From NCBI GenBank assembly GCA_005791255.1, contig SXXK01000489.1, positions 1 to 40,725 of the forward strand: 40,725 nucleotides of DNA. Direction: 5' to 3'. The first letter of the stretch is position 1; every line of letters starts with the position of its first letter. Source of the stretch: Planctomyces sp. (lineage in GTDB: Bacteria > Planctomycetota > Planctomycetia > Planctomycetales > Planctomycetaceae). A model generated the notes under the pieces. It made no database searches. It saw only the letters and a list, made by a program, of their open reading frames with translations, and was not told the DNA's origin. This document shows, piece by piece, positions 1 to 40,262 of the stretch. Both the position numbers and the translations under genes were made by a program.

Positions 1-3000
1 CAGCGACACTATCGGGTATTTCAACAATACAGGTGAACGGTGAGACGCGACTGAAGACAAGGAATTCCGTTTCGGCAGCTGGTGATTGCCCAGGCCTTGC
101 TGATACAACGGTTGCTGAGATGGCCACGAGGCTGTTACCGGGACCGGAATCAGTTTCTGTCGGCACAACGGGAATTGGCAGTTGGATGTTCATGGGACTG
201 ATGAACTGACCTGCCGGCAGGCGTTTAGCGTATTCCGATTCACGAGCGCCGGAGGCGGTCATCTGCAGTCGACCGACATCGAGTGTCCAGTCGGGCATTC
301 GTGATTCGGGAGTTGGCCGAGCCGGCGACTTTTCGGCAAGGAAAAGTTCGGACCACGTGATGCGTTCTGAGATTGCAGGCCATGGGATGCTGGCATTGGA
401 ACTGTCGGTGGCTGATTTTCGTTCGGGGAGAGGCAGGCTCCAGATCACAGTGAAGTCGGATTGTCCGAAGAGTGATCGGATGGCCGTGCCATCGACAAAG
501 AATCGCTGACCATCGCGCTGGAGTGCATACTTTTCGCGGTTGGAGAGTACTGCTGGTTCGCTGACAAATTCAGTGTTGTCAGGGAAGTTCATTTCCAGAG
601 GCCCGAGAGCGACGGACCACTGTGTGAGTCGCACGGCGAACTGGAGTCGATCGGCAAGCCACCATGCGGCTACTGCGCCCTGTGGATCCACGGGATTCAG
701 TCGGGTGAGTCTGATGGGGCGAGTTTCGCCGACGACTGTGAGTCTGAGTGGTGAGCCTCGCTGCAGTACGTCTCCGGGTTTGAGTGGGGGATCGGAAACG
801 GCGTCACCGGTATCAGCGAAGACGAGTCCGGTACCGGACTGGTCATTGAGGACCAGCGAGGATTCAAGAATCTGGGATTTTTCAAGAGTTGGGCTGGGTA
901 TGCGCAGATCAGCATCATCTGGAAGTATTTCCAGGGTTCCCTGCAGGGTAATGGCGTGCAGGCCGGTTGTGCCTTCGCGCAGCAGGATGATGACCTGGTT
1001 TCCGCGACGGTGCCATGAGGCGAGTCGATTTGCTTCACCGGCTGTGACTTCGACGTTCTGTACGATGACTTTTTCGGGAATTGTGATGCGGTGTCGAAAG
1101 ACGGCCAGGGCGGAAGTTTCGACGTCCATGCGGCAGGTCCAGTTCATGTTCTGTTCGGTGAAAGTGCACTCCTGCGAAATCCGGACTTCATTGGTTGTGA
1201 TGCGGTCGGGGGCAGTGAGTTGCAGGCTGAGGGAATTCTGTGAGATCTGGAAGATCAGATCGGACCTTCTCAGCCATGGGCCCCAGCGTGGTGAAACGTC
1301 TGTGAAGTTGAGCGGAGTGGCCAGCGTTCTGTCGGGAGTGACGGGTGCAAAGATGGGGTTTGCCCGCAGGGCGAGAATTCCGCCGAGTGTCGGCGTACAG
1401 TCGGCGAACTGATTCAGCTGATGCACTGGAATCAACTGCTGCTGTAGTGGCAGGGGCCGAGTTGATCTGAGTTGCAGGTGCAGAATGAAGTCCGCCGGAA
1501 CAACTCCGGGAAGAGCAATGACGGCGGATTGATTGTCAGTCGACCAGAGCAGTTCAGGGTTCTGGAATCCGGCAGCAGCGGCAGCCGAGAGGAGTTTGAA
1601 TCCGTCGGGTATGCGGTAGCGTATTTCTGTGCTGAGTGGGTTCCATTGTTCAAAGCGGCAGTAGCAGCTGAGATTTTGCAGTCCGGAGGTGTTTTCGGCG
1701 ACAGTCATGACTTCAACTCGGGCGGGATTTGCGCGGCTGCGATCGAGTTCTGTCTGGAGCAGTCGCACGTCGACAGAGTCTCCGCCAGCCAGTCCGTTGA
1801 ACGGGACAGATCCGCTGGCGGGATTCCACTGGATGAAACCGTCAGTGGACTGCAGTCGGGCGATTGAAAACAGTCCTTCAGCGGCGATGATTTCGATTTC
1901 TGACAGCGGGCTGGGTGGAGCGGGTATGCGGAATTGCAGCCCTGACGGCTGACGGAGCGTGTGAGGACGAAGTCGGCAGACAACGAAGTGTTCTGAGAAT
2001 GCTGCGACTTCGTCGGCGGCTACTGCGGTGCGATTCTGGTCGGTGTCAGCGATTGGAAAATCGGGAACAGTTTTGGAGGCGGGGATGGGAATGGCGAGTT
2101 GATCGGGAGGATTCGGTTCAGGAAAGACCTGTTGTCCGTTGACTTCACAGGAAACCAGCTGAGTTCCCTGGGTGGGCAGGTTGAGAGCGCCAGCCTGATC
2201 GCTGCTTGGCACGGAGACCACCAGTTCAAGTCTGAGTTCGACGGAGTCCGGTGTGCTGGCGGTGACGATGGCTTTAAGGGAGCGTACGACGGCGTCGGAT
2301 TTTTTAGGAATCAGCAGTTCGAGTTCTCGGAGTTGCCGGAGATAACTGCGGCGAACGAAGGCGATTCCCGCAGTTTCGGGAGTGGGTGGAGGTGTGAGGA
2401 TGTCGGGAGTCCGGGCATTTTCGGTCAGGGGGCTGCGGGGGGGCTGAGCGGCTTCCTGGGCTATCGCGGAGTGGGTTGTGAGGGTCACGAGGAGTGTCAG
2501 GCTGCGGAGTATTGCGGTGTTTCGGAAGCTGCGCAGGTATCTGAGGAAACTGCGAGTTGACAGCATCAGCAGCAACGCTCCGGCACTTCCCCAGAACGCT
2601 CCCTGCAGTGCGGCATGGACGACGGGAGTCAATTCAAACAGACCAGCGGGTGAAAGCATTATGATTGGTAGAGCTGCAGCCTGAGGATTTCTCAGCAGCA
2701 GTGTTGAGCAGGAGAGGCAGATGCCGAAGAAGACAACGCCCATCCCGGCGGCAACGATCCGGCGTCGCTGTTTCTGAGTGACTTCCAGCGACATGGGATA
2801 GTCTTTTGTATCCGGCTGCACGAACCATGCGCGGGTCCAGCCACGGGTTCCTGAAAGTTGCCAGTACAACTGGAATTGAGTTGTTTCTGCGTGCGGTCCG
2901 GACGTGAATCCAGCGGAGTTTGCTGCGTGGGCGGGCTCAGGCGAGTTCCGAAAAAAGAGTTCGTCAAGCTGCGGAGCATCGGAGGAATCAGCAACACGGA

Positions 3001-5716
3001 ATTCAGAGGGAGGCAGTTCTGGTTCAAGTTCGGGAGCGATCAGCAGGTGGTGTACGAATTGAACGCCCTTGCCATTGATGGATTGCAATCTTGATAAATT
3101 CAGTCGACTGCGAATGTTTTCGAGCGGAGTGAATTCGGGGCTCCATGTCAAAACGACGCGACAGCGATCGGTTGTGGCGGGCAGCGGGATCCGGAGTCCA
3201 GTGGGACCCCGTTCGGCAGCGATCCGTCTCCCTTCGACAAGGACATAGGGTTGTGTCTGGGCGGTATCGATCAGCAGCTGATTTGCAGTTACGGGGCCGG
3301 CGACATCGATGACTGCGAGCATTCGGTGTTCGACCTGTCCCTTGCGTTCCCGAATCAAGTGATAGCAGGCGGCATCAGCTGACTGTATCGGGTCTCTGGC
3401 TTCGGGACTGGATCGTTGAATAACGATGGTTTGGGGTTCGATGGGCAGGATCCACGATGCCAGTTGAGCATTTTCCGGGACAGCCGGTGATTCCTGCAGT
3501 CCTGTGACATTGAGGATCTTCAGATCGGAGCGAGGCAGGGTGATTATGGCGGTGGTGGTTTCTGCTTCGGGGAGAAAGGGAACTGCCGCAGAAAATTGTC
3601 CGGTGACTGCGCGTCGGATACTTCCATTGATAAGCACGGTGGCATCGTTGCGGAACTGTGGCAGTGGCAGGATGGCGTCTCTCCAGGAATTTTCAGAGCC
3701 TGCTACGGCGCGCCATGTCGGGGTAATGGTCTGTCCATTGACAGTCCAGCTGATTTCTTCAGCGAATTCAGCGTCCAGTCGGAGAATGATGCTGGACTGC
3801 AATTGTGAGGGAGAGCATTCGACCTGCAGATTTTCGACAACAACACCGTCACCGTCAGTCCGTAACTGATGTGTCACACGGCAACGGGCAGGCTGGGTGG
3901 CCGGTTGCATTTGCGGGAGCGAGTCACCGCCGAAGTAGCAGAGAGTATCTTCCGAGATTTCGGTGGCGGGAAACCACGGAGCGGCGGCAAGAAACGTCTG
4001 ATTTGCCATCGACTGCAGGCCGCTGGCCCAGCGGCTTGAAATGCGGGATCCCGTCAGCGTCGCGGGTGAATACAGAAGCCATGCTGCTGTGCGTTCGACG
4101 TCCGGAGCGACAGCGAGTGGAGGCTGCAGGGTGGCCGGGTCCGCCTTTTCGGACTGCTGCATTTGCAGGTCAATGACCCGTGATGTATCGGGTTCGAGGG
4201 TTTCGGGAAGGTGTACGGTGAGAACGGAGCTTTCGGAGCCATCAGAAGCCTCGCCACCTGAAGCGGATCGTTGTTCGAAATAAAGTGCGCGACCGTTTGA
4301 TGTATAGCGTGCGGCTACGATCTGCCAGCCGGCATTGATGGGCCATTTCAGTTCAATGACTGCAGCTTCACGGCACTGCACATTGACGAAGCAGCGAACG
4401 GCAGCCAGTTGCCCGGTGGGTTGCAGAAGTGTTGCGACAGCATCGGAGAGAACTGCGGCGGTCGTGGAAGTGCGGACGGTGGCCGAGGCATCGCTGCTGT
4501 ACTGCGTTAACTGATAGGTGCGTGACTGATCCGGTCCTGGAACAACGTCTCGTTCCTGCATTCCGGTGAGTGCCCAGTCATCGATATTGACGGTGGATGG
4601 CAGAGAGACACTGACGATGCCCGGCGGCGTTAAGAGTGTTCCACGAGTTTCCTGTGCGCTTTGCCATTCCTGCATCGCCAGGGCCGGGAGATCCCATTTG
4701 TCGGCATCCGGGATCACAGATGCGGTGGAGATCGTCAGTGATCCGGCGGAACCGGCATCAGAGAGTCTGATGAGCAGACTTTGTGAGTTTTCGGAAGTGT
4801 GAGTTTCCCAGCGCACTGAGCGGTTTTCATCAGTGCGAACGGCAGTCACGCGGGCGCCGGGGCTAAGTCGTGCCGACAACGCTGCGAGGTCGCGCGAGTT
4901 CTGTGGGAGCCCGATGGTCCATCGAGAGGACATGATGTCGCCGTTCAGGACGTGATTTGCCGAGAAACTTGTCAGTGGCAGTGGTTCGGATGGCTGCAGG
5001 TGGGATGTGTTTCGACAGGAAAATGCGAGCCTGGCGGGTTCAGACGCCAGCAGTTCCCAGAGCAATCCGGATTCAGCGGGCTGGGGCCCAAGGACGAGGC
5101 AGCCCAGTCCGGTAACTTCTGTTTCCGGAGGAGTTTTGAGCTGCAGCGAAGTGGCGCTGCTGGCGGGCAGCTCCAGTCGAAATATTGTGGATTCGCCTGA
5201 GACGAGTCCATCAGCGGTCCACGTGCCGCTGAGATCTCCGGTCAGACCGGGTTTCAGGACGAACAGACGTCTTTCAGGATCCGCACCCAGTGGGACGGTT
5301 CCCTGTGGATCACGGAGTTGCAGTTGCCGCAGGCTTGTGCGTCCGAGCAGGAGACCGTTTCCGGAAGCTGCCTCTGCGGATCTGCTGAGTCCGAACTGCA
5401 GAGTACCGGAGACCAGAGAGCGTCCTCTGAATTCTGCTTCATAGCGGGCCATACGGATTGTTGGGGCAGACGGTTCCTTCGAGATTGTCAGAAGTTTCTG
5501 CAGGGCACTGAGATCTTTTTGGGAGAGTGGTACGTATTCACCCGCAGCGATCATTTCAGGGAGTTGCTCTGGTGTGGTGGGTGCAGTACTGACACTGGGA
5601 GTTGTCGGGGATTCTGCGGTGCTGACGGAAGCAGGGGATTGGGGAACCTGCGGATCAGTCTGTCCGGTGGCAGCCTGGAGCAACAACGAGAAAAGTATCA
5701 GGAAGTGTCCGGACAT
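1..5716 (-). CDS. Giant planctomycete-type envelope/secreted protein, partial (C-terminus beyond left window edge); two signal-peptide + beta-rich ectodomain modules in one frame
   Basis: The - strand frame starting at ATG 5716-5714 (MSGHFLILFSLLLQAATGQTDPQVPQSP...) showed no stop in the stretches I read by hand (about 5716-4480, 2830-2440 and 1-360). No ORF in the supplied track uses this frame, as expected for an ORF with no stop inside the window. N-terminal signal peptide, Pro/Ser/Thr-rich linker, long beta-rich ectodomain, hydrophobic segments at about 2560-2790. Confidence 0.85.
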   Translation of the reverse strand, partial: MSGHFLILFSLLLQAATGQTDPQVPQSPASVSTAESPTTPSVSTAPTTPEQLPEMIAAGEYVPLSQKDLSALQKLLTISKEPSAPTIRMARYEAEFRGRSLVSGTLQFGLSRSAEAASGNGLLLGRTSLRQLQLRDPQGTVPLGADPERRLFVLKPGLTGDLSGTWTADGLVSGESTIFRLELPASSATSLQLKTPPETEVTGLGCLVLGPQPAESGLLWELLASEPARLAFSCRNTSHLQPSEPLPLTSFSANHVLNGDIMSSRWTIGLPQNSRDLAALSARLSPGARVTAVRTDENRSVRWETHTSENSQSLLIRLSDAGSAGSLTISTASVIPDADKWDLPALAMQEWQSAQETRGTLLTPPGIVSVSLPSTVNIDDWALTGMQERDVVPGPDQSRTYQLTQYSSDASATVRTSTTAAVLSDAVATLLQPTGQLAAVRCFVNVQCREAAVIELKWPINAGWQIVAARYTSNGRALYFEQRSASGGEASDGSESSVLTVHLPETLEPDTSRVIDLQMQQSEKADPATLQPPLAVAPDVERTAAWLLYSPATLTGSRISSRWASGLQSMANQTFLAAAPWFPATEISEDTLCYFGGDSLPQMQPATQPARCRVTHQLRTDGDGVVVENLQVECSPSQLQSSIILRLDAEFAEEISWTVNGQTITPTWRAVAGSENSWRDAILPLPQFRNDATVLINGSIRRAVTGQFSAAVPFLPEAETTTAIITLPRSDLKILNVTGLQESPAVPENAQLASWILPIEPQTIVIQRSSPEARDPIQSADAACYHLIRERKGQVEHRMLAVIDVAGPVTANQLLIDTAQTQPYVLVEGRRIAAERGPTGLRIPLPATTDRCRVVLTWSPEFTPLENIRSRLNLSRLQSINGKGVQFVHHLLIAPELEPELPPSEFRVADSSDAPQLDELFFRNSPEPAHAANSAGFTSGPHAETTQFQLYWQLSGTRGWTRAWFVQPDTKDYPMSLEVTQKQRRRIVAAGMGVVFFGICLSCSTLLLRNPQAAALPIIMLSPAGLFELTPVVHAALQGAFWGSAGALLLMLSTRSFLRYLRSFRNTAILRSLTLLVTLTTHSAIAQEAAQPPRSPLTENARTPDILTPPPTPETAGIAFVRRSYLRQLRELELLIPKKSDAVVRSLKAIVTASTPDSVELRLELVVSVPSSDQAGALNLPTQGTQLVSCEVNGQQVFPEPNPPDQLAIPIPASKTVPDFPIADTDQNRTAVAADEVAAFSEHFVVCRLRPHTLRQPSGLQFRIPAPPSPLSEIEIIAAEGLFSIARLQSTDGFIQWNPASGSVPFNGLAGGDSVDVRLLQTELDRSRANPARVEVMTVAENTSGLQNLSCYCRFEQWNPLSTEIRYRIPDGFKLLSAAAAAGFQNPELLWSTDNQSAVIALPGVVPADFILHLQLRSTRPLPLQQQLIPVHQLNQFADCTPTLGGILALRANPIFAPVTPDRTLATPLNFTDVSPRWGPWLRRSDLIFQISQNSLSLQLTAPDRITTNEVRISQECTFTEQNMNWTCRMDVETSALAVFRHRITIPEKVIVQNVEVTAGEANRLASWHRRGNQVIILLREGTTGLHAITLQGTLEILPDDADLRIPSPTLEKSQILESSLVLNDQSGTGLVFADTGDAVSDPPLKPGDVLQRGSPLRLTVVGETRPIRLTRLNPVDPQGAVAAWWLADRLQFAVRLTQWSVALGPLEMNFPDNTEFVSEPAVLSNREKYALQRDGQRFFVDGTAIRSLFGQSDFTVIWSLPLPERKSATDSSNASIPWPAISERITWSELFLAEKSPARPTPESRMPDWTLDVGRLQMTASGARESEYAKRLPAGQFISPMNIQLPIPVVPTETDSGPGNSLVAISATVVSARPGQSPAAETEFLVFSRVSPFTCIVEIPDSVA
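2440..2790 (-). other. Internal TM cluster followed by signal-peptide-like segment inside the giant ORF (module junction)
   Basis: Hand translation of the - strand: ...QRRRIVAAGMGVVFFGICLSCSTLLLRNPQAAALPIIMLSPAGLFELTPVVHAALQGAFWGSAGALLLMLSTRSFLRYLRSFRNTAILRSLTLLVTLTTHSAIAQEAAQPP... Three hydrophobic stretches, an Arg-rich patch, then a hydrophobic core ending in a signal-peptidase-I-like AIA-Q site. Confidence 0.75.
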
Positions 5717-5717
5717 T

Positions 5718-8700
5718 TCAGCGTGCCGAGCCTGAGGAGAGATCCGGTTGCAGAGCACTGCTGCCCGATGCTGCACCGTGGTTATCTCGAACGTCTACGG
5801 CAGCCAGGTCGGGAAAACCGAAGATGGAGGGCAGTTCGGCGGTGTTGGCAATCGAGTTGCCGGAGGTGCGTCGATCTGCCAGATATCTGTGCAGCTGAGC
5901 GATACACAATCCTGCCAGTATGCCGGCAACGGCAGCTGGCAGAAAGACGGCTGACCAGACAGGCTGAGCAATCCATGTGGTGAGTGCCAGGGCAGGCGTG
6001 AGGACGAGGGGTACGAGTGGCGAGAGGCGTCTGAACAGGGACATGGACAGAAAGATCAGAGCACAGCCGGGCGCGGCAGCGAGGACCTGCAGGGCAAGTG
6101 GAACTTCGATGACTCTGAGTTCCCGGGCTGCCGCGGTACCGAGGCAAAGTCCGCTGGCATTTTGCTGTCGGATTACCGACGGAGTGCAGGTTTCAACGGC
6201 CGTCCGGACTGCAGGCGAGAAGGTGGAGATTACGGAGGCGAGGTCGGCGGCATGCTGTGCCGCGACGGGCTGCCTCCACGGCAGCGCCGAGGTCAGCCCG
6301 TGATCAAACGAATCAAAGTCGCTGCCGAGCGGAATACTGCGGGCGCCGGGGGATGACAGCAGGCTCCAGACGACCGGCAAGGCAGCTTCTTCAGCGGAAA
6401 AACGGGGTCTCAGCAGGCTGAGCCGGCGGTAAAACGCCGAGCCTGATGGAGTAATCTGGCGACATCTGATCAGCAGCACTGTCGGGCCTTGCAACTGTTC
6501 GAGCGCCGTGGGCAGGATCTGCCAGCGTACAGCAGTGCCGTCTGTCGTTGGCACTGCCTGCAGTGCTGTTCTGGCAACGTCGGCTGTGGTCAGCATCTGA
6601 CTGCCCAGCTGCACAGATTCGAGCTGTAATTCATTTTCGAGGCTGAAATAGATGTTCCGGGGAACGTCCTCCCACGCCGCGATTATTGATGTAAGAGCCT
6701 GTCCGGGCAGCAATTCGGAGCCTGCGAGGATCAGCAGGGGGCTTTCTGCGCCTCCAAAGCCGGCTGTTTCGGCGCGGCGGACAGGCAGTGTCAGGTTCTG
6801 TGCCGTCAGGGCGGGAATGGCTGACGAACCTCCACCCGTCTGCCCGCTTCGCCATTGCCACGCAGCATCAGACTCTTCGGAAAATACGGGCTCCCAGCGG
6901 ACGGGGTCTGCGACCTGCAGTCCGCTCCATGATGCTGTTTGTGCGCGAATGCTGCGAATCAGGCAGTCACCGGGAATCACCAGCGGCACTTCCTGAATTG
7001 CGTTTTGGCTGGCTGAGCCCGATTGCTGAGCACTCCAGATCCAGCCCACATCCAGCAACAGTTCTCCTCGAGCTGACTGAGGAAGTCGAAATGTCCACTT
7101 TCCAGAGGGCCCTATCACCGGTCGCAGTGGTTCACGAATGCCTGCAGCACGCACTATCGGCTGGACTCGATCCGGCACAAACAACGCTACTTCAGTCAGG
7201 TCTTTATGATCGATCAGAAAGCGAATCTGCTGTCGGAGTTCAAGTCCGTTGGCGACCGGCGCCAATCTCGTGGAAACATCTGCTTCGACGACCGGGTCCT
7301 GTTTTCGCAGTGAGACCAGCAGTGGTTGCTCCGGATCTCGATAAAGCAGGCTGCGCGGGGGATTGACCGGACCTGCAGTCTCCGGGCCAGCACCAGCTGA
7401 CGAGATCGCGTTCAGAGCATCGGCAGATGCGGGCGCGGTGATTTCAATTCGATTCTGGTCGGACTGCAGCAGTCGAATGGTAACGGGTTGACCGGTGCGT
7501 TCGCGTACCTGAGGGCAGAGCAGGCTGAGTACAGCATCTGCTGTGGCTTCCTGTTTTGCGAGACAGCGGAGTTCAGCACTGAATTCCCCTGTTTGTCGTT
7601 CGAGAAATGTCAGTGTGATCCAGTCCGGCTGACCTTCAACATCACGCAGAACTGCTCCCGAGGTGCCCGGCTGTCGCTGAAGTACAATGTCGCCGGGCAG
7701 CAGGCCCCAGATTTCACGCATTGCCTGCGGCCACTGCAGCGGCAATTCCAGGAGTGAACCGCGGAGAACATTCACGTTCCAGCGCATCAGCAGACTGACG
7801 GAGTTGCCTTCCGGCTTCAATTCCAGTTCCTGTGTGAAGATGTACTGTGCCTCCGTCTCCTTCACCAGAAGCTGAATCCTGGATTCCGGAGATCGAAGCC
7901 GAAATGCGGTCGCTGCGACCCCTCCGGCCACGTCGGAGGCCACGCGGCGTCGCTGAGCGCCCTCCACCTTCGACTGCTCCACAACAAGTCCTGACGGGAT
8001 CAGAATATCGAGGTCACCTGTCTGGACATTGGCCTCCTGAACAACCGGAAGCGAAACAGCAACCGCGAGTGGAAAAGCCTGTTCCCTCATTTCCAGTTCG
8101 AAACCGAGAGTCAGCTGGCCTTCAACCGCTGAAGTGAGGCGTATCAGAGTCCGCTGCGGATTTTCATTCGGCAGCGATTCAAAATTCTTCAGTACCGAGG
8201 CATTGGCTGAGTTTCGAGCACTGACTTCCTGAAGCTCGAAACCCGGTGGATAGACCACACTGACCTCGGAAAGAGATCCACCAGTGATCTGCAGCGACTG
8301 TGTGCCATTGAGACTGACAGGAATAGTCGTCAGGTCAAGTTTGATGCGGGACTGGGACTGCACTACCGGGGGTACGGCGATCTGAGGTGTGATTTCGGAC
8401 CATGTCAAAAAGATCGGACCTGAGAGCCCCCAGAGTTCAACAGCCCGCACACCCTGTTCATCACGCTGCGTTTCCGACACCGCATCGGCTGGCAGACGCT
8501 GCAGGTCGACAGGGACAGCAAAATCGAGGCGTGCGTGGGAGGCTGTGGATTGCGGGAGAGTCAGATTCAACTGCCAGCCCCCCCCGGTTACAGGTCGTGC
8601 GCGGCTGATCATCTGCAGAGTGAGTGTGTGCAGGCCCCGACCGCGGAGATGCCAGGTCCTCAGATTCTGCTCACCAGCCGACAGGACGGCTTCGGCGCCT

Positions 8701-9152
8701 GCGGCCTGTGATTCATGGCGAAACTCGGTCAGAAACACTTCGCCGAATGAAACGGGAACGGCAATCCACTCGCCGTCGGTACGAATCTGTACCTGCAGTC
8801 GGAATGTCAGTCGCACAACATCGCGTTCAACGGCTCCTGTGATCTCGGTGTGGGCAATTGTGAATGCCGGTACTGCACGCTGTTGCAACCCGCGCTGCAG
8901 CAGGAGATCAGCAATGTCAGGCCCCAGCAGATTGCGGAGTGGTACGAGGTCCCCCGATTTCATGCGGATCAATATATCAGATGTTCCGAGCGTTTCAGCG
9001 GCGGGGTCCTGCGTTGCGGGTGGCGTCGCTGCGGGCGGGGCGAGATCGGACTGTGCAATCACAGGTTGCGCAAAGAGACACAGACTGGCAAGCAAAGGAC
9101 CGGCAAGCAACAGTCGTGCGGCGCTGCCGAAGTTCGGGAGTCGCCAATGCAT
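5718..9152 (-). CDS. Large signal-peptide-bearing, beta-rich planctomycete envelope protein with C-terminal transmembrane segments
   Basis: ORF 5718..9176. The more likely start is the internal ATG at 9152 (MHWRLPNFGSAARLLLAGPLLASLCLFAQPVIAQ, a signal peptide). C-terminus has TM-like stretches (LALQVLAAAPGCALIFLSMSLF; LVPLVLTPALALTTWIAQPVW; SAVFLPAAVAGILAGLCIAQL). The TGA stop is 1 nt before the ATG of the giant ORF. Confidence 0.85.
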   Translation of the reverse strand: MHWRLPNFGSAARLLLAGPLLASLCLFAQPVIAQSDLAPPAATPPATQDPAAETLGTSDILIRMKSGDLVPLRNLLGPDIADLLLQRGLQQRAVPAFTIAHTEITGAVERDVVRLTFRLQVQIRTDGEWIAVPVSFGEVFLTEFRHESQAAGAEAVLSAGEQNLRTWHLRGRGLHTLTLQMISRARPVTGGGWQLNLTLPQSTASHARLDFAVPVDLQRLPADAVSETQRDEQGVRAVELWGLSGPIFLTWSEITPQIAVPPVVQSQSRIKLDLTTIPVSLNGTQSLQITGGSLSEVSVVYPPGFELQEVSARNSANASVLKNFESLPNENPQRTLIRLTSAVEGQLTLGFELEMREQAFPLAVAVSLPVVQEANVQTGDLDILIPSGLVVEQSKVEGAQRRRVASDVAGGVAATAFRLRSPESRIQLLVKETEAQYIFTQELELKPEGNSVSLLMRWNVNVLRGSLLELPLQWPQAMREIWGLLPGDIVLQRQPGTSGAVLRDVEGQPDWITLTFLERQTGEFSAELRCLAKQEATADAVLSLLCPQVRERTGQPVTIRLLQSDQNRIEITAPASADALNAISSAGAGPETAGPVNPPRSLLYRDPEQPLLVSLRKQDPVVEADVSTRLAPVANGLELRQQIRFLIDHKDLTEVALFVPDRVQPIVRAAGIREPLRPVIGPSGKWTFRLPQSARGELLLDVGWIWSAQQSGSASQNAIQEVPLVIPGDCLIRSIRAQTASWSGLQVADPVRWEPVFSEESDAAWQWRSGQTGGGSSAIPALTAQNLTLPVRRAETAGFGGAESPLLILAGSELLPGQALTSIIAAWEDVPRNIYFSLENELQLESVQLGSQMLTTADVARTALQAVPTTDGTAVRWQILPTALEQLQGPTVLLIRCRQITPSGSAFYRRLSLLRPRFSAEEAALPVVWSLLSSPGARSIPLGSDFDSFDHGLTSALPWRQPVAAQHAADLASVISTFSPAVRTAVETCTPSVIRQQNASGLCLGTAAARELRVIEVPLALQVLAAAPGCALIFLSMSLFRRLSPLVPLVLTPALALTTWIAQPVWSAVFLPAAVAGILAGLCIAQLHRYLADRRTSGNSIANTAELPSIFGFPDLAAVDVRDNHGAASGSSALQPDLSSGSAR

Positions 9153-9195
9153 AGACCCTAACCCTTCCCGCGCCACTGAAGGTTGCTGAACTGAC

Positions 9196-9374: not shown

Positions 9375-10157
9375 TCATTTGAACAGATTTGTGAGTTGTT
9401 GCTGGAGTTCGGGTGAGCTGGCAGCGAGCAGGCTGGGTGCGAAGAGATCGATTTTTTCGCCTTTAAGGTTGGAGAGGACTCCACCGGACTCGGTGACCAG
9501 CAGGGCTCCGGCGGCGATATCCCAGACATTCAGGCTGCTGGACCAGAATGCGTCGATGCGGCCGGCTGCGAGGTTAGCGAGATTGAGAGCAGCGGACCCG
9601 GTGCGCTGTACGGTCTGCAACGTGCTGAGAGCGGTGAGGAATCTGCGGACCGCCGGGTTTTCCGGATTTGCAGCTATGGGGAGGCTGGCCATCCCGAACG
9701 CTCGATCGATACGCGTTTCGCCGCTGGTTTGCAGTGGCGAACCGTTGAGTGCGGCACCGCCGTTTCGGATAGCGGTGAACAGGTCATGTCTGGTTGGATC
9801 CAGAATGACGCCGACTTCGATCTCACCGTGGTACATCAGGGCGATGGAGACGGCGTAATAAGGGAATCCGTGAACATAGTTTGAGGTTCCGTCAAGGGGA
9901 TCGATAATCCAGACGGCTTCGTGGCTGGAGCCGCGTTCGTTGAGATTTTCTTCACCGAGGAACGAGTGATCAGGGAAGTGCTGCCGGAGTCGGCTGACGA
10001 TTGCGGTCTGGGAGGCTTCATCTGCGTCAGTGACGAGGTTTGCTCGACTTTTTTCGCGGACGGAGAAGCGGCCCTGCCAGTCCAGCAGGACCTGTCCGGC
10101 GACTTGAGCGGCTTCGACGGCAGCGTTCAGCCAGGCTTGTTGCGACATAAATTGCAC
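9375..10157 (-). CDS. Inositol monophosphatase family protein
   Basis: IMPase motifs: GEENL, WIIDPLDGTSNYVHGFPYYAVSIAL and WDIAAGALLVTESGG. Confidence 0.95.
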   Translation of the reverse strand: MQFMSQQAWLNAAVEAAQVAGQVLLDWQGRFSVREKSRANLVTDADEASQTAIVSRLRQHFPDHSFLGEENLNERGSSHEAVWIIDPLDGTSNYVHGFPYYAVSIALMYHGEIEVGVILDPTRHDLFTAIRNGGAALNGSPLQTSGETRIDRAFGMASLPIAANPENPAVRRFLTALSTLQTVQRTGSAALNLANLAAGRIDAFWSSSLNVWDIAAGALLVTESGGVLSNLKGEKIDLFAPSLLAASSPELQQQLTNLFK

Positions 10158-10457: not shown

Positions 10458-10514
10458 GGAGAAGTGTTTCCATTACCTCGCCGATCTGAGAAAGCTGAAG
10501 CCTGTGGGATTGTC

Positions 10515-10967
10515 ATGAAGTCTGCACGCGTTGTGCCCGGTCGTCGCGGTGCCGTTCTGTCCATGGAACTGGTGCTGGTGCTGCCGATTTTTTTGCTGCT
10601 GATTTTCGGCATCGCTCAGTTTTCGATGCTGATGGCGGCGCACGCGCGGATCACATCGGCAGCGCAGTCCGGGGTGAGGATGATGAGTCTCAGTGGGTCC
10701 GGTGTTCCTGAAGTGCAGGAGCGGGTAGCGAACCTGCTGGGGGCGACGCTGGCGGTCAACTGCGAGATTGACGTTCAGCCGGCGGAGTATGCCGGGCAGA
10801 TCGGCAGTGTTTTCATCAAAGTGCCTATGAGCAATGCCAGTCCGGATCTGCTGTGGATGACGGGATTCAGTCTGACGGATCGCTATCTGGAATCAAGTGC
10901 TGCAATGGTGATGGAGCGGGTAGCAGTCGTGGAAATGACGGCTGAGGACAGCGGTTCGGCCCTTTGA
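10515..10967 (+). CDS. TadE-like pilus assembly protein
   Basis: N-terminus RRGAVLSMELVLVLPIFLLLIFGIAQFSMLMAAHARITSAAQSGVR is typical of TadE/TadF. ATG at 10515 preferred over the ORF start at 10464. Confidence 0.85.
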   Translation: MKSARVVPGRRGAVLSMELVLVLPIFLLLIFGIAQFSMLMAAHARITSAAQSGVRMMSLSGSGVPEVQERVANLLGATLAVNCEIDVQPAEYAGQIGSVFIKVPMSNASPDLLWMTGFSLTDRYLESSAAMVMERVAVVEMTAEDSGSAL

Positions 10968-11016
10968 GTTATTCGCACGGCATCGAGATGCATTTTGAGT
11001 ACTGAAGGAGACACCT

Positions 11017-12039
11017 GTGAAGATCACGCCCTGGATGCTGACGATTGCGACATTTTCGATTGTCTGTACTCTGGCCGCGGGTTACATGCTGAAACTGGCA
11101 TTTGGTCGGGCTCCGGTAACCGAGTCGCCTCGCACGACACGCACCATTCCCATGCTGCAGTCGGACGTGGAGCCGGGTACGGTCATTACCCGAGCACACA
11201 TTGGGATGGGTCCGTGGGATCGCAGCAAGACTCTTGAGCCGGACACCATGCTGAATTCGGACACGATCATCAACCGGATCTCGAAGGAGAAGATCACTGC
11301 GGCGACTCCGCTGCGAGGTTCGATGTTTTATGCTCCGGGAGATTTTCCGGCGCTGGACATTGCCGAGGGGAAGCGAGCGGTGGTGGTGCGGGTCAGTCCG
11401 ACGACGGCGGCACTGAATGCGAAGCTGAAGCCGGGGCAGTACGTGGATGTGCAGTTGACAGTTGATGAAGCGGACGTCTCAGCAGCAGCTCGACGTCGTG
11501 CGGGTTTGGATCCCCGCAGTGACACTCTTAGCGGTGATGCCATGACGGCGACACTGTTTAAAGGTGTGAAGGTGGTGCAGGTCAATCGGTCTTCCCCCGG
11601 AACTCCGATACCGACCGCGGCTGGCAGCCAGAGCGTGACACTCGAACTGGATGAGGAGCAGTCGCGGATTGCTCTGCTGGCGCAGAAGAAGGGAGAGATT
11701 GATCTGATTTACAGCAACAACGGTCCGGGGAAGGGCGGAATCAGTATTGAAGCCAGCGAGGACGACCGAATTTTCTTCATGGAGATTCTGGGACTGAAGT
11801 CCGTGGCACGTGAAGAGAACAAGCCATACCGAACCGAGCAGTATCGCGGGCCCAGTTTCAACAGTCAGTATTTTGAGGACGGGCAGCGCATGGGCAACCC
11901 AACCGGACCGCGTACGGCCCCGGCACCGCCGAACAGTTCCTCCATTCGCGGCCCCTCGACTACGCAGCTGAACGACAATGATGTCACTCTGGATGACCTC
12001 GCCGGCAACCTGCCGGCGGACAGTGGAGTTCCTCGCTGA
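11017..12039 (+). CDS. cpaB: Flp pilus assembly protein CpaB/RcpC (SAF domain)
   Basis: N-terminal TM; SAF-like VEPGTVITRAHIGMGPWD; GKRAVVVRVSPTTAALNAKLKPGQYVDVQLTVD; AAGSQSVTLELDEEQSRIALLAQKKGEIDLIY. AAGGAG upstream of GTG start. Confidence 0.87.
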   Translation: MKITPWMLTIATFSIVCTLAAGYMLKLAFGRAPVTESPRTTRTIPMLQSDVEPGTVITRAHIGMGPWDRSKTLEPDTMLNSDTIINRISKEKITAATPLRGSMFYAPGDFPALDIAEGKRAVVVRVSPTTAALNAKLKPGQYVDVQLTVDEADVSAAARRRAGLDPRSDTLSGDAMTATLFKGVKVVQVNRSSPGTPIPTAAGSQSVTLELDEEQSRIALLAQKKGEIDLIYSNNGPGKGGISIEASEDDRIFFMEILGLKSVAREENKPYRTEQYRGPSFNSQYFEDGQRMGNPTGPRTAPAPPNSSSIRGPSTTQLNDNDVTLDDLAGNLPADSGVPR

Positions 12040-16158: not shown

Positions 16159-17388
16159 ATGATGCGATTGCTGCGAAAAACGGTGTGTTCTCGGGTGATG
16201 CTTTGCGGTGTGTTGTTTGTGACTGTCAGCACTGCGGCCGAGGCACAGCAGCGTTTTGAGCAGCAGCGGGAAGCGATGGTTCAGCGGTCGCTTGAGGCGG
16301 AGGGAATTCGGAATCCGCGTGTGCTGGAGGCGATGCGGAAGGTGCCTCGGCACGAGTTTGTGAGGACGGCAGACAGGAGCCGGGCTTATGAGGACACGGC
16401 TCTGCCGATAGGCAATCAACAGACAATTTCGCCGCCCTATGTCGTGGCTTACATGACGGAGGTGCTGGATCCGGGCCCGGAGGATCGGGTGCTGGAGATC
16501 GGTACCGGCAGTGGTTATCAGGCTGCGGTGCTGGGTGCGATCTGTCGGGACGTTTACACGATCGAAATTGTGCCGCAGCTGGCAAAGCAGGCGACTCGAC
16601 GGCTGCAGGACCTGGGTTATGAGAATGTGCATGTCCGGGAGGGTGACGGCTACAAGGGCTGGGAGGAGCATGCGCCGTTTGATCGGATTATTGTGACGTG
16701 TTCTCCGGAGAGCGTTCCGCAGCCATTGATTGACCAGCTGAAAGAAGGCGGGCGGATGATCATTCCGATGGGTGAGCGTTACCAGCAGTCCTTTCATCTG
16801 CTGAAGAAGGAGAATGGCTCGCTGCAGGACGAGAGGCTGATCTCCACGCTGTTTGTGCCGATGACGGGTGAGTCTGAGGAGCAGCGTCGAGTGCAGCCGG
16901 ATCCGGATCAACCGCAGATTGTGAATGGTGGTTTTGAGCGTGATGAGAATGGTGACGGGCGGGTGGATGGCTGGCACTACCAGAGAAATGCCCGTTTGGA
17001 GACGGATGGCGCGATGGAGGGGCAGCAGTATCTGCGATTTGAGAATGCGGATGCGGACTCGCTGTCTCAGGCGCTCCAGGGGACGGCAGTCAACGGCCGT
17101 CGTTTGGCGGCGCTGCGATTGCAGTTCTGGATGCGTTGTACGGGAGTTGTTCCGGGTGCTGGTCCGTCCGGGCAGGCAGCGGTGGTGGTGCATTTTTATG
17201 ACGGTGTGCGACGTGAGATCGGGGCTGTTGTGATTGGTCGCTGGCGGGGAACGCTGGACTGGCAGGATGTACGTTCTGTGGTGCAGGTACCTGCTGAAGC
17301 GAAGGAAATGATCTTTCGCATCGGACTGAATGGTGCTGTGGGTCAGCTGGACCTTGATGATCTGAAGATTGTTCCTGTTCCGCGATGA
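16159..17388 (+). CDS. pcm: Secreted protein-L-isoaspartate O-methyltransferase with C-terminal beta-sandwich-like (CBM-like) domain
   Basis: PCMT core: MRKVPRHEFV, YEDTALPIGNQQTISPPYVVAYMTEVL, DRVLEIGTGSGYQAAVLGAI, EGGRMIIPMG. N-terminal signal peptide. Extra C-terminal region VNGGFERDENGDGRVDGWHYQRN...LDLDDLKIV. Confidence 0.9.
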   Translation: MMRLLRKTVCSRVMLCGVLFVTVSTAAEAQQRFEQQREAMVQRSLEAEGIRNPRVLEAMRKVPRHEFVRTADRSRAYEDTALPIGNQQTISPPYVVAYMTEVLDPGPEDRVLEIGTGSGYQAAVLGAICRDVYTIEIVPQLAKQATRRLQDLGYENVHVREGDGYKGWEEHAPFDRIIVTCSPESVPQPLIDQLKEGGRMIIPMGERYQQSFHLLKKENGSLQDERLISTLFVPMTGESEEQRRVQPDPDQPQIVNGGFERDENGDGRVDGWHYQRNARLETDGAMEGQQYLRFENADADSLSQALQGTAVNGRRLAALRLQFWMRCTGVVPGAGPSGQAAVVVHFYDGVRREIGAVVIGRWRGTLDWQDVRSVVQVPAEAKEMIFRIGLNGAVGQLDLDDLKIVPVPR

Positions 17389-17428
17389 TTCGGGGCAGGT
17401 GCGGCGTCTTTATTCCGGGGCGAGAGCA

Positions 17429-19522
17429 ATGAGCGTGTACCCTGTGGTTCTGTGTCCTGTGTTCCTGCTGTGCTGGCTGTTTTTGCAGACAGCGGCAGTC
17501 TGTCAGGACGCGGCGAAGCCGGCGGATCCTGCCGCTCCCGCCGATGGCGTCGGTTCCGGTGATCCCGAGAACCCGTTTCCTCGGGCCGTCAGGGTGCCTG
17601 CGGGGGTTATGGATGGCGGGGCGGAGTGGTTTAATACATCGCAGCCACTGGCGCTTGAGGATCTGCGCGGGAAGGTTGTGTTGCTTGATTTCTGGACGTA
17701 CTGCTGCATCAACTGTATGCACATCCTTCCGGATCTGAAGTTTTTGGAGGAGAAGTACGGCGATCAGCTGGTGGTGATTGGCGTGCATTCCGCCAAGTTT
17801 GACAATGAGAAGGATTCGCAGAGCATTCGCAATGCGATGCTGCGGTATGAAATCGAGCATCCGGTGGTGAATGACAGTGAGATGCTGATTTGGCGACGTT
17901 TTGGGACTCGAGCATGGCCGACTGTCGCGTTGATTGATCCGGAAGGGAACTACTGTGGTTCGCAGAGTGGTGAGGGCAACAGGGAGCTGCTGGACGGTGT
18001 CATTGGACGTTTGATTGAGTATCACCGTTTCAAGGGCACTTTGAACGAAAAGCCTTTGGCGTTTTCTCAGGAGTCTGTCCGTGTTGCTGAGACTCCGCTG
18101 CGTTATCCGGGCAAGGTGAGTGTTGATACAGAGGGCAATCGCGTATTCATTACTGACAGCAATCATAATCGGATCGTTGTGGCTGGAATGAATGGTGAGC
18201 TGCAATCAGTGATTGGCAGTGGTGTGGCTGGACGGCGGGACGGCAGTTTTCAGGAGGCTGAGTTTTTCAGGCCGCAGGGAACAGTGCTGGTGAACGGGGT
18301 GCTGTATGTGGCTGACACGGAGAATCATTTGATTCGTGCGGTGAATCTGGCGGAGGGGCGTGTATCGACTCTGGCTGGTACGGGTCTGCAGGGGCAGCCG
18401 GGGCAGTCTCTGGACGGCGGGCTGCTTGAAGTACCGCTGAACAGTCCGTGGTCGATTGCTCATTCCAGGGGGACTTTATTCATTGCGATGGCGGGGCCGC
18501 ATCAGATCTGGTCGCACGTGCTGGGAAGTGATCGTGTGGCTGTGCATGCGGGCAGTGGTCGTGAGGATGTTGTGAATGGTGCGTTGGCTGAGGCTGCATT
18601 TGCTCAGCCATCGGAACTGGTGGTGGACGCTGAGGGAACGTGGCTGTACGTCGTTGACAGTGAAGGATCGGCGGTGCGTCGAGTTTCCACTGACGTGGCG
18701 GGTCGGGCAGAGACGCTGGCTGGCACTTCGGAGTTGCCGCGCGGGCAGTCATTGTTTGCATTTGGCTATCAGGATGGTGTCGGGGACGCTGCAAGATTTC
18801 AGCATCCGCTGGGTGTGGCACAGCATGGCCAGACTCTGTTTGTTGCTGATTCCTACAATCATCGCATCCGACGAATTGATCTGAATGGGAATGCTGTGAC
18901 GACCTGGCAGGGAGACGGTACAGCCGGAAATGCAATACAGCCATTGCAGCTGAGCGAACCAGGCGGGCTGGCGTATGCCGGGGGGCGACTGTTCATAGCC
19001 GACACAAACAATCACCGGATTATTACGGTGGATGAGGCTACGGGGGTGTCGGCGGAGTTTTCTGTGGTCGGCCTGACGCCGCCGGAGACAACTGTTCGGC
19101 GACCGCTGCCGGACCTGAAGTCCGCCGTGGAGGTGGCTCCGGTGAGGCTGGCAGCGACCGCAGAGTTGTTAACCGTTGTGAAGTTGCAGATTCCGGCGGG
19201 CTGGAAGAGGAATGCCGATTTTCCGGTGACGTGGGCGGTGTTTGCTGAGTCTGAGCAGACTGTTGTGCCGAAGTCTGCTTTGGCGGTGCGGCAGGAAGGT
19301 GAGGTGGTGGGGGATGGCAGCGAGGTGCAGATTGTGATTCCGCTTTCCGGCCAGCCGGGCGAGGCGTCTTTGGTTCTGCAGGTCACGTGGGGGTACTGCA
19401 CGTCTGACGGCAAGGGGTTGTGTCGGATGGCATCGGCGGTGTGGAAGGTGCCTGTGGTGCTGAACACCGACGGTGGTGAAAGTCGGCTGGAGCTGCAGTT
19501 TCCTGAGCCGGATATCCGGTGA
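17429..19522 (+). CDS. NHLRC2-like protein: thioredoxin-like domain plus NHL repeats
   Basis: VVLLDFWTYCCINCMHILPDLKFLEEKYGDQLVVIGVHSAKFDNEKD followed by NHL repeats (ADTENHLIRAVNL, ADSYNHRIRRIDLNG, ADTNNHRIITVD). Start at internal ATG 17429 gives a signal peptide. Confidence 0.93.
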   Translation: MSVYPVVLCPVFLLCWLFLQTAAVCQDAAKPADPAAPADGVGSGDPENPFPRAVRVPAGVMDGGAEWFNTSQPLALEDLRGKVVLLDFWTYCCINCMHILPDLKFLEEKYGDQLVVIGVHSAKFDNEKDSQSIRNAMLRYEIEHPVVNDSEMLIWRRFGTRAWPTVALIDPEGNYCGSQSGEGNRELLDGVIGRLIEYHRFKGTLNEKPLAFSQESVRVAETPLRYPGKVSVDTEGNRVFITDSNHNRIVVAGMNGELQSVIGSGVAGRRDGSFQEAEFFRPQGTVLVNGVLYVADTENHLIRAVNLAEGRVSTLAGTGLQGQPGQSLDGGLLEVPLNSPWSIAHSRGTLFIAMAGPHQIWSHVLGSDRVAVHAGSGREDVVNGALAEAAFAQPSELVVDAEGTWLYVVDSEGSAVRRVSTDVAGRAETLAGTSELPRGQSLFAFGYQDGVGDAARFQHPLGVAQHGQTLFVADSYNHRIRRIDLNGNAVTTWQGDGTAGNAIQPLQLSEPGGLAYAGGRLFIADTNNHRIITVDEATGVSAEFSVVGLTPPETTVRRPLPDLKSAVEVAPVRLAATAELLTVVKLQIPAGWKRNADFPVTWAVFAESEQTVVPKSALAVRQEGEVVGDGSEVQIVIPLSGQPGEASLVLQVTWGYCTSDGKGLCRMASAVWKVPVVLNTDGGESRLELQFPEPDIR

Positions 19523-25047: not shown

Positions 25048-28000
25048 ATGCGAACAGCTCTGTTTATCCTGATATTTCTGCAGGTTCTGCAGTGTCGGAC
25101 TGCTGCTCAGGATGTCAGCAGCGAGGAGTTCTTTGAGAATCGGATTCGGCCTGTGCTGGCGGGTACCTGTTTCCGCTGTCATGGTGGTGAGCGGGTATCT
25201 GGTGGTTTGCGTGTGGACTCGGTGGATGCATTACTGGCGGGCGGGGATTCCGGTCCGGCGATCATCCGTGGGGATTCTGCGGGCAGTCTGCTGTTTCGGG
25301 CCATTGCCAGGCAGCCGGACGTTTCTGCAATGCCTCCTGCTGTCGATCAGTCCTTGTCGGCAGAGCAGGTGGAGGATTTTCGGAACTGGATTCTGGCGGG
25401 AGCAGTTTGGCCGGAGAGGGTAGCCGATTTTGAATCGGCGAAGCACTGGGCGTTTCAGCCGATCGGCAGTTCTGTTGTACCGACGGCAGATTCTGGTTGG
25501 TGTCGGACGGAAATCGATGCGTATGTACTGCGTGGGCTGCGAAATGCGGGACTTGAACCGAGTGGTGATGCGGACCGACGTACTCTGTTGCGTCGCGTGA
25601 ACTTTGATCTGACGGGGCTGCCGCCGACACCTGACGAACTGGATGCCTTCGAGCGGGATGCAGATCCGGCCGCGTTTGAGAAAGTAGTTGATCGTCTGCT
25701 GGCGACTCCGGCTTATGGTGAAAGATGGGGACGACACTGGCTGGACGTGGTGAGGTACGCCGATACGGCGGGTGAAACGGCCGACTATCCTGTGCCTGAA
25801 GCGTGGCGCTACAGGAATTATGTGATTGAGGCTTTCAATCGGGACGTGCCATTTGACCAGTTTGTTCGCGAGCAGCTGGCCGGTGACATTCTGGCCTTGC
25901 GGAGTCCTGATGAGCGATTTGCGGAGCGAGTGACAGCAACGGGCTATCTGGCATTGTCCCGGCGGTTTGGTTTTGACTCGGAAAACTATCACCATCTGAC
26001 AATTCACGACACGATTGACAGCGTGGGCCAGACATTTCTGGGTCTGAGTATTGGTTGTGCTCGCTGTCACGACCACAAATTCGATCCGATTTCCACTGCT
26101 GAGTACTATTCACTGTACGGCATCTTTGACAGCAGTCGTTACCCATTTCCGGGTTCTGAGCAGAAGCAGCGAGTGCGTTCACTGGCGCCTCTTGTGCCGC
26201 CACAGCAGGCGGAAACTGAGTGGCGGTCCTATGTGAGGCGGACGGCTGATTTGTCGCGGGAGCTGGCGGCCCTCAAGCGTCCCGTTCCTGTGGCGGTGCT
26301 GCGCAGCCTGATGGATCTGGACGGCGATTTTGAACTGCAGGCTCCGGCTGCCGGTGGCAGTTATGGAGTTCCGGTGTCTCCGTGGCTGTACACGGGAGTG
26401 GTGTCGGTCACAGGTGAGGCTCAGAGTCCGTTTCAGCACGTGTATCCGGGCGGTCGTCACGGGCTGACGGTGCCGTCGGGTGCCGAGCCGTGGCGGGTCT
26501 GGCAGGGACTGAAGACGGCCAGTGCTGAGCCGGCATCAAAGCTCTGGTTCAGCGTGGATTTTCGGGTAAGGGATGGAGCTTCACCGGAACAGGGAGGACA
26601 TCGAATTCGCCTTGCATCGTCCGTGTCGGGGCGGGGTATTGATGTGCTTCTGAGTCAGGGCGGGGTGTTGTTGCAGTCGGGCGAAAAGTCTGTGAAGGCA
26701 GGTGAGTATCGGGCGGGCGAATGGCTGAGTTTGCAACTGGAGCTGGATCTGCGGGCTCACCATGTTGTCTGTCGTCTGGGGACAGAGCAGGGGATGTTGC
26801 AGAGTGAGGATTGGTGGGCGGGGCAGGAGTTTTCACCTGATCTGCTGATTCTGTGCGCGGACAGCGATCGATCGCAGGTCCGTCCGGGGCTGGATTTTGA
26901 CAACATCGTTCTGCAGTCTGTGCCAGTGGGAGCAGTATCGCGAGAGTGGTCGGTGTCTGCGGGCGAGTCGGCTGAAGCCCTGGCGGCTCAGTTGCGTCAG
27001 CTGACGGGGTTGGACGGAGATCTTGAGCAACAACAGGCAGGGGATGCTGGCTTGACAGCTCCGTGGAATGCCGGGCCGGGCAGTATTGTGAAGCTGCGGC
27101 CAGAGTCACAAAGTCCGCTGGAGAATGTTTACGGAATGGGTCGTCAGGGATTGTTTCTGCCCCAGCGATCGCAGTATGACGGGTTTGGTGTGACGATCAC
27201 GGATTTGCCTGCGGATCCTGCTGGTCTGGTGCATCTGGCATTTGATATTCGCCCTTATCAGGCAGCGGAAGGCTGCGGATCGTGGCGCTATTACATAGGG
27301 CACGGACCGGGCCCGCTGCCGGCTGTGGAGCTGCATTTCACGGATCGTGCGATGTTCACCAAGTCTGCGACGGGATATGTTCGTGTGGGGGAGCTGAGTG
27401 CGGGCGAATGGCACCAGGTTCAAATTGTGCTGGATACTCGGAACCGCAGTTATCGGGGTCAGATTGTGGGTGCGGGTTTGACTGCGGAGTTTCATGGGGA
27501 GTGTCTGCCCAACTGGGATGGTGTCATCGATTACAGTTTCATAGACAGTTACGGGCATCTGCCTGGCCTGCGTCCGGCGCTCGACGTGGATAATTTTGCG
27601 TTGCAGTCCGCACCCATTCCAGCGATTGATTACAGGGTTTCGCGGCAGGATGCTGCTGTTCGTCGCGGGGAAGTGCAGCGCCTGAGGCAGCAGATTTCTG
27701 CACTGCAGGGGCGTGCGGACGTGCTCCAGCAGGAGTTGCAGACACTGCTTGCCAATGGTCCTTATCCGATGGCCTACGCGATGTCCGAGGGGACTGCTCA
27801 TGATGTGCGTATTCAGCAGCGGGGAGAGCCTGATCAGCTCGGGGAATCTGTTGCTCGAGGATTTCTCAAAGCAGTGGGTGGGGATGTTGCCGGAGTTGAG
27901 CTGACGGGGAGTGGTCGACTGCAGCTTGCCGAGTGGCTGGTCCGTCCTGAGAATCCATTGACAGCGAGGGTGATAGTGAATCGGGTGTGGCAGTATCATT

Positions 28001-28752
28001 TTGGCAGTGGTCTTGTGCGGACTCCGAATGATTTCGGGGTCCGGGGGGCAGCGCCAGTGGATCCGGAGTTGCTCGACTATCTGGCGGAACGGTTTGTACG
28101 AGAGGGCTGGCGTATCAAGTCGCTGCATCGTGTGATTCTGCGCAGTGCGGTGTGGCAGCAGCAGGCGAGTGCCGCTGGTGTGGTAAGTGCTGCTCCCGGC
28201 GTAGTTCGTCGCCGACTTTCTGCAGAAGAGATTCGTGATTCCATTCTGGCAGTGAGTGGTCAGTTGGATCGATCTGTGGGTACCGCCCATCCTTTCCCGC
28301 AGCCGTTTGAGTGGGGATTCAGTCAGCACGGTCCGTTCAGCGCTGTTTATGATCACCGGCGTCGCAGTGTGTACCTGATGACATCGCGTTTGCGGCGGCA
28401 TCCTTTTCTGGGTTTGTTTGACGGTCCGGATACGAACGCATCGACGGCAGAACGTGCGCGGACAACGGTTCCGACTCAGGCTCTGTTTTTCATGAATGAT
28501 CCGCTGGTTCATGAGGCTGCTGCTGCGTGGTCTGAGCGGCTGGAGGTGACTGCTTCGGAAGATTCGGAGCGACTGCGTCTGGCGTGGCGACAGGCACTGC
28601 AGCGGTGGCCGGAGGCTGAAGAACTGAGCGAGGCTTTGGAATTTATGCAGGATTATGGGGTGCGTTTTGCGGAGAGTGATGGACGTCGCAAATCACTGGA
28701 AGCGGTACTTCGATCGCTGCTTGGCAGCAACGAGTTTTTGCATGTGGATTGA
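25048..28752 (+). CDS. PSD1 / planctomycete cytochrome c domain protein (DUF1549 + DUF1553) with internal duplicated domain
   Basis: CFRCHGGERVSGGLRVDS and CARCHDHKFDPIS; DUF1549-like GLPPTPDELDAFERD...YGERWGRHWLDVVRYADT; DUF1553-like NPLTARVIVNRVWQYHFGSGLVRTPNDFG and TTVPTQALFFMNDPLV. Confidence 0.95.
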   Translation: MRTALFILIFLQVLQCRTAAQDVSSEEFFENRIRPVLAGTCFRCHGGERVSGGLRVDSVDALLAGGDSGPAIIRGDSAGSLLFRAIARQPDVSAMPPAVDQSLSAEQVEDFRNWILAGAVWPERVADFESAKHWAFQPIGSSVVPTADSGWCRTEIDAYVLRGLRNAGLEPSGDADRRTLLRRVNFDLTGLPPTPDELDAFERDADPAAFEKVVDRLLATPAYGERWGRHWLDVVRYADTAGETADYPVPEAWRYRNYVIEAFNRDVPFDQFVREQLAGDILALRSPDERFAERVTATGYLALSRRFGFDSENYHHLTIHDTIDSVGQTFLGLSIGCARCHDHKFDPISTAEYYSLYGIFDSSRYPFPGSEQKQRVRSLAPLVPPQQAETEWRSYVRRTADLSRELAALKRPVPVAVLRSLMDLDGDFELQAPAAGGSYGVPVSPWLYTGVVSVTGEAQSPFQHVYPGGRHGLTVPSGAEPWRVWQGLKTASAEPASKLWFSVDFRVRDGASPEQGGHRIRLASSVSGRGIDVLLSQGGVLLQSGEKSVKAGEYRAGEWLSLQLELDLRAHHVVCRLGTEQGMLQSEDWWAGQEFSPDLLILCADSDRSQVRPGLDFDNIVLQSVPVGAVSREWSVSAGESAEALAAQLRQLTGLDGDLEQQQAGDAGLTAPWNAGPGSIVKLRPESQSPLENVYGMGRQGLFLPQRSQYDGFGVTITDLPADPAGLVHLAFDIRPYQAAEGCGSWRYYIGHGPGPLPAVELHFTDRAMFTKSATGYVRVGELSAGEWHQVQIVLDTRNRSYRGQIVGAGLTAEFHGECLPNWDGVIDYSFIDSYGHLPGLRPALDVDNFALQSAPIPAIDYRVSRQDAAVRRGEVQRLRQQISALQGRADVLQQELQTLLANGPYPMAYAMSEGTAHDVRIQQRGEPDQLGESVARGFLKAVGGDVAGVELTGSGRLQLAEWLVRPENPLTARVIVNRVWQYHFGSGLVRTPNDFGVRGAAPVDPELLDYLAERFVREGWRIKSLHRVILRSAVWQQQASAAGVVSAAPGVVRRRLSAEEIRDSILAVSGQLDRSVGTAHPFPQPFEWGFSQHGPFSAVYDHRRRSVYLMTSRLRRHPFLGLFDGPDTNASTAERARTTVPTQALFFMNDPLVHEAAAAWSERLEVTASEDSERLRLAWRQALQRWPEAEELSEALEFMQDYGVRFAESDGRRKSLEAVLRSLLGSNEFLHVD
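26330..27630 (+). repeat. Internal tandem protein-domain duplication within the PSD1 protein
   Basis: Copy 1 SPFQHVYPGGRHGLTVP ... LDFDNIVLQSVPV; copy 2 SPLENVYGMGRQGLFLP ... LDVDNFALQSAPI, with matching spacing. Confidence 0.75.
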
Positions 28753-28755
28753 ACC

Positions 28756-40229: not shown

Positions 40230-40262
40230 AGTATGTCTCGCAGAAGGCGTTCAGCGGAGTGA

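Follow-up and report, generated by a model that had tools for sequence, protein, structure and literature searches.

Two adjacent genes encoding three homologous modules of a candidate cell-envelope system (modules C, A and B) were identified at one end of a 40,725-nucleotide stretch of planctomycete DNA (the window). One gene encodes module C as a separate protein, and the other, a giant gene, encodes modules A and B as one polyprotein. Judged by profile comparison, modules A, B and C are full-length homologues. Each is predicted to carry a long, repeat-built beta-rich ectodomain held by a helical membrane anchor.

The open reading frame of module C is located on the minus strand at 5718-9176 and encodes 1152 aa from GTG 9176 or 1144 aa from ATG 9152. 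A Shine-Dalgarno-like sequence, GGAAGGG, is present just 5' of ATG 9152, which is likely to be the true start, giving a gene of 5718..9152. The giant open reading frame (modules A and B) covers positions 2-5776 of the same strand (1925 aa, running off the edge of the window); its true start is likely to be ATG 5716 and the likely extent of the gene is 1..5716. This ATG lies one base past the module C stop (TGAAATG), and a junction of this kind suggests that the abutting genes are probably translated together. The giant gene is incomplete because the contig ends at window base 1: the window begins where contig G000:C474 does, in a draft genome of 5.58 Mb and 542 contigs. A complete giant is found at a sister locus (L002/L033) with 88% identity, where it occupies a 2233-codon stop-to-stop frame and measures about 2145 aa (about 2.15 kaa) when counted from the likely ATG. 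The original prediction, made from the window, had described both open reading frames correctly, and the motifs and hydrophobic anchors that it quoted are present in the proteins. Its planctomycete label is consistent with the closest relative in the searched collection, a Planctomycetaceae MAG (88% identity), and with the spread of the modules across the phylum.

Single-sequence BLASTP between the modules gave a best E value of only 0.014, and profiles were therefore used instead; profile-profile comparison was required in the window's lineage because modules A and B are far diverged there. Profiles built from family alignments of about 40 relatives were compared by hhalign, which gave co-linear matches between A and C (E 5.1e-29, 1007 columns), B and C (E 8.5e-30, 845 columns) and A and B (E 1.9e-22, 912 columns), with reversed-profile controls at a probability of 21% or less. 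The three alignments, which are independent of each other, were concordant within 5 residues in 735 of 775 triple-aligned columns. The strong co-linear homology of all three pairs in this module-against-module test, with the failure of the reversed controls, bears out the earlier proposal of tandem modules of one architecture. In plain HMMER searches, a phylum-wide profile built from module C only (A6) also detects all three modules. Its matches at the second locus of one complete genome (G097 locus II) have E values of 9e-262, 8e-76 and 3e-74, and three copies were recognized by this profile in 34 of 80 loci. The reversed profiles and two genomes without matches (the g8 genomes described below) served as negatives. 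A MAFFT alignment of the six modules of the window and L002, in which the N-termini were misaligned, was excluded from the homology claims.

A tree of 102 modules was used to follow the duplication. Modules C, A and B each form their own clade in 21 type-I loci from several families (support 1.0, 0.98 and 1.0, respectively), and the duplication is therefore older than the families sampled. In the group of type-II and out-of-class loci, module C forms one clade (0.99), A and B are not cleanly separated, and the deepest order is uncertain. In some out-of-class genomes each module has a gene of its own, with C, A and B measuring 1129, 1262 and 1148 aa, respectively, at locus L097 and 1211, 1435 and 1489 aa at locus L098, and the modules are therefore real units. 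The clades and these three-gene versions agree with the ancient tandem duplication that had been suggested from the window. The giant gene is directly 3' of module C in all 41 same-family loci inspected. At one locus (L072) the stop-to-stop frames of module C and the giant overlap by more than 600 bases. A 3895-codon frame at G070 locus II was considered as a three-module fusion and rejected, as separate frames of 1213 and 2681 codons are present there.

Within the family, a search with a single sequence detected module C orthologues in 105 of 150 genomes. A profile search found module C in 265 of 298 sampled genomes of the class (approximately 89%), corresponding to 138 of 155 genera; among the high-quality genomes of the class the count was 237 of 261. 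In the sample drawn across the phylum, 76 of 199 genomes (66 of 157 genera) were positive. Most genomes of the window's family contain two loci. The second locus of the window's own genome is a diverged three-module locus split over contigs G000:C28 and G000:C306. Two g8 genomes of the same family (G007 and G061), one of which is a single contig, gave no module match even at E 10, which may reflect lineage-specific loss or divergence beyond detection. Since some genomes, such as these two, do not contain the modules, the system is not universally required.

The modules have a common layout, as had been proposed, consisting of a signal or start-transfer helix at the N-terminus, a linker rich in Pro, Ala and Thr, a beta ectodomain of about five repeats and an anchor. 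In module C, the predicted signal peptide is encoded at 9051..9152 (minus strand, as are all module features) as an N-terminal hydrophobic segment (MHWRLPNFG...PVIAQ), and a signal-like segment of this type is present in 37 of 37 relatives. The ectodomain follows at 6267..8879, where five tandem beta repeats were delimited by hhalign self-comparison and repeat-versus-repeat profiles. A C-terminal three-helix membrane anchor with the basic tail HRYLADRR is predicted from hydropathy at 5901..6098; three hydrophobic segments are present at this position in 35 of 37 relatives. The ectodomain of module A is encoded at 2777..5566 (approximately residues 71-1000 of the giant protein, P0001), as delimited by the A-C and A-B alignments and their triangle consistency. 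It is followed at 2447..2758 by an anchor and an internal signal-peptide-like helix, both recognized by hydropathy, that lead into module B. The anchor helices lie near P0001 residues 1007-1023, 1033-1049 and about 1060-1080, and the internal helix is NTAILRSLTLLVTLTTHSAIAQ (residues about 1086-1107). The basic stretch RSFLRYLRSFR can be read between them. Three or more hydrophobic segments are found at the A/B junction in 35 of 37 giants. The ectodomain of module B, delimited by the B-C alignment, is incomplete in the window (1..2446); its last part and its anchor fall past the contig end and are seen in L002. The terminal anchor of module B consists of one helix in the window's genus and of two or three in many others. 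The similar multi-helix anchors noted in two of the modules thus correspond to a three-helix anchor common to C and A.

The signal peptides, helical anchors and topology support the predicted placement in the envelope. The original prediction considered large beta-rich surface proteins plausible in planctomycete envelopes; in a surface version, the proteins would act as adhesins or form a cell-surface layer. Large beta-rich ectodomains, signal peptides and Pro/Thr-rich linkers would suit such a function in a phylum known for attachment, but polytopic alpha-helical anchors, conserved in module C and at the A/B junction at the frequencies given above, are a feature of the cytoplasmic membrane, and Pfam searches found no outer-membrane or cell-wall sorting domain. 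A surface location is thus considered improbable, and anchoring in the cytoplasmic membrane is preferred.

Self-comparison resolves each module ectodomain into about five tandem units of approximately 168 aa. In module C, the repeats correspond approximately to residues 100-272, 273-442, 443-627, 628-810 and 811-970, with the phase taken from in-register matches to M1_N (PF17900), the N-terminal domain of M1 aminopeptidases. Comparison of the repeat profiles with each other gave E values from 7e-24 to 2e-4 (R2-R3, 7e-24; R2-R4, 4e-18; R3-R4, 1e-16; R1-R5, 8e-9), and reversed profiles gave 3.3% or less. A merged-repeat profile matches the first half of M1_N only (84%, E 7e-6). Along the module, five in-phase matches to M1_N were obtained, each at the start of a repeat; reversed profiles and the profiles of two other beta families, VIT and MG2, were used as controls and gave about 2% or less. 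PF17900 gave no single-sequence Pfam match for the module proteins. AlphaFold models built from the window and L002 sequences only were poor (pLDDT 42.6 and 53.7). For the low-confidence model of repeat 2 (pLDDT 53.7), the top Foldseek matches are M1 aminopeptidases (E 1.4e-3, TM 0.34). Antibody Fabs, the first Foldseek result, had a TM of about 0.15 and were uninformative. As the structure models are of low confidence, the assignment depends on remote profile similarity, which is suggestive of a remote relationship between the beta repeats and the N-terminal beta-saddle of M1 aminopeptidases.

The HExxH motif is absent from the window proteins, which are thus not M1 peptidases; a motif scan was positive in 1 of 37 pairs, and Pfam searches found no M1 catalytic domain in any member. 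The similarity to M1_N could also be explained if the modules were catalytically dead M1 peptidase relatives that bind peptides or proteins as chaperones. The match is limited to the part resembling the N-terminal beta-saddle, however, and with neither a recognizable catalytic domain in the family nor HExxH in the window proteins, a chaperone function of this kind is regarded as unlikely.

No family match was obtained in Pfam, NCBIfam, PADLOC or PDB sequences, either with single proteins or with 32-44 diverse relatives, in keeping with the earlier statement that no named family could be recognized. The sole Pfam match below 0.001 was a weak one to TgpA_N (E 8e-5) in 1 of 44 members. The PADLOC models of anti-phage defence did not match the module proteins, the viral contigs scanned contained no relative of the modules, and no description of the family was found in open-access literature (open-access text only).

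The genes next to the modules are not specifically structural. An inositol-monophosphatase (IMPase)-family gene (9375..10157, minus strand; PF00459, E 5e-66) is directly upstream of module C, and a gene of this family occupies the same position and strand in 36 of 80 loci from several families (median distance 77 bp). It is a conserved neighbour that lies outside the homologous modules. This linkage would fit a periplasmic sensor or substrate-capture receptor that works with the enzyme and whose repeats bind a ligand, for example a polysaccharide. No linked signalling domain or enzymatic motif accompanies the modules, though, and the IMPase presumably resides in the cytoplasm, across the membrane from the ectodomains; in more than half of the 80 loci, the linkage was not found. 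A receptor function is accordingly given little weight.

The Tad/Flp pilus genes TadE and RcpC/CpaB are located divergently upstream of module C (10464-12039, plus strand), and VWA/Tad_C and TadE genes are found at 39000-40703 (minus strand). TadE and CpaB relatives are each present near the modules in 17 loci, again divergently upstream. The modules might on this basis serve a pilus at the inner membrane, either as a platform for its assembly or as a cage that stabilises it. Pilus neighbours are restricted to part of the family, however, and no conserved cluster was found outside it; locus II and the out-of-class loci have unrelated neighbours, the spread of the modules is far wider than the Tad synteny, and no homology of the module proteins to Tad proteins was found in Pfam or NCBIfam. 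Partnership with a pilus is therefore unlikely. In 11 loci, a UppP-like gene, named from its sequence alone, is found downstream, on the other strand. Because no neighbour accompanies the modules throughout their range, the module genes seem to make up a system of their own. Elsewhere in the window, the planctomycete cytochrome pair PSCyt1/PSCyt2/PSD1 with DUF1501 is encoded at 25048-30171 and a thioredoxin-like domain fused to NHL repeats at 17369-19522, both on the plus strand.

The molecular basis of the enlarged periplasm of planctomycetes is debated. The gene pair, which is conserved in approximately 89% of the sampled genomes of the class, is large (more than 3,000 aa of membrane-anchored ectodomain), has no name in Pfam or NCBIfam and is unmatched by sequence in the PDB, is a strong candidate for an envelope component. 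The layout and homology of the modules and the conservation and pairing of the genes are well supported. Elimination, together with topology and conservation, points tentatively, at somewhat less than an even chance, to a periplasmic scaffold that is anchored in the cytoplasmic membrane and composed of module C and the A-B polyprotein. The three paralogous modules encoded by the two genes would make up a single envelope assembly, in which C is a separate protein and A-B are one polyprotein, with the internal signal-peptide-like helix after the module A anchor. The ectodomains of A and B would both project from the cytoplasmic membrane into the periplasm: the three helices after the A ectodomain would return the chain to the cytoplasm at the basic RYLRSFR, and the internal helix would act as a signal or start-transfer segment that re-exports the B ectodomain to the same side as A. 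Almost gapless translation of C and A-B could yield a hetero-complex of fixed stoichiometry, and the long ectodomains may form a scaffold, for structure or for docking, within the enlarged periplasm, with no enzymatic activity of their own. Planctomycetes possess an enlarged, invaginated periplasm (PMC8567305). A broader and more speculative proposal, considered rather unlikely as a whole, is that the hetero-complex, with about fifteen tandem M1_N-like beta-saddle domains in three membrane-anchored modules and with roughly two paralogous loci in each genome of the family, is an undescribed envelope machine of the Planctomycetota that spans or organizes this periplasm and underlies the membrane architecture of the phylum.

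Several known systems resemble the modules in part. Planctomycete VIT-domain proteins (PF08487) share a beta-rich domain and are abundant in the phylum, but the VIT profile has no match in the module repeats (0.6%). Bacterial alpha-2-macroglobulins such as YfaS, with their MG arrays (PF01835), are likewise very large envelope proteins with tandem beta domains, and proteins of this type are common in the genomes that contain the modules; they differ in that the MG2 profile is unmatched in the repeats (hhalign 2.1%), the modules have no alpha-2-macroglobulin Pfam matches, and the anchor is of another kind. NOMO and other tandem Ig/transthyretin-like scaffolds contain a signal peptide, many tandem beta-sandwich domains and a transmembrane anchor and have a structural role. 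The modules share the signal peptide, tandem beta domains and transmembrane anchor, whereas no sequence relationship to NOMO was found beyond one chance-level match (E 0.086), and a polytopic anchor and three paralogous modules set them apart. The likeness to the M1_N beta-saddle (PF17900) is a remote one at the level of sequence profiles, the module repeat being in register with its first half. The modules differ from M1 metallopeptidases in having about five tandem copies of the repeat and a membrane anchor in place of a catalytic domain with HExxH, and the M1 aminopeptidase beta-saddle has likely been re-used here as a tandem-repeat building block.
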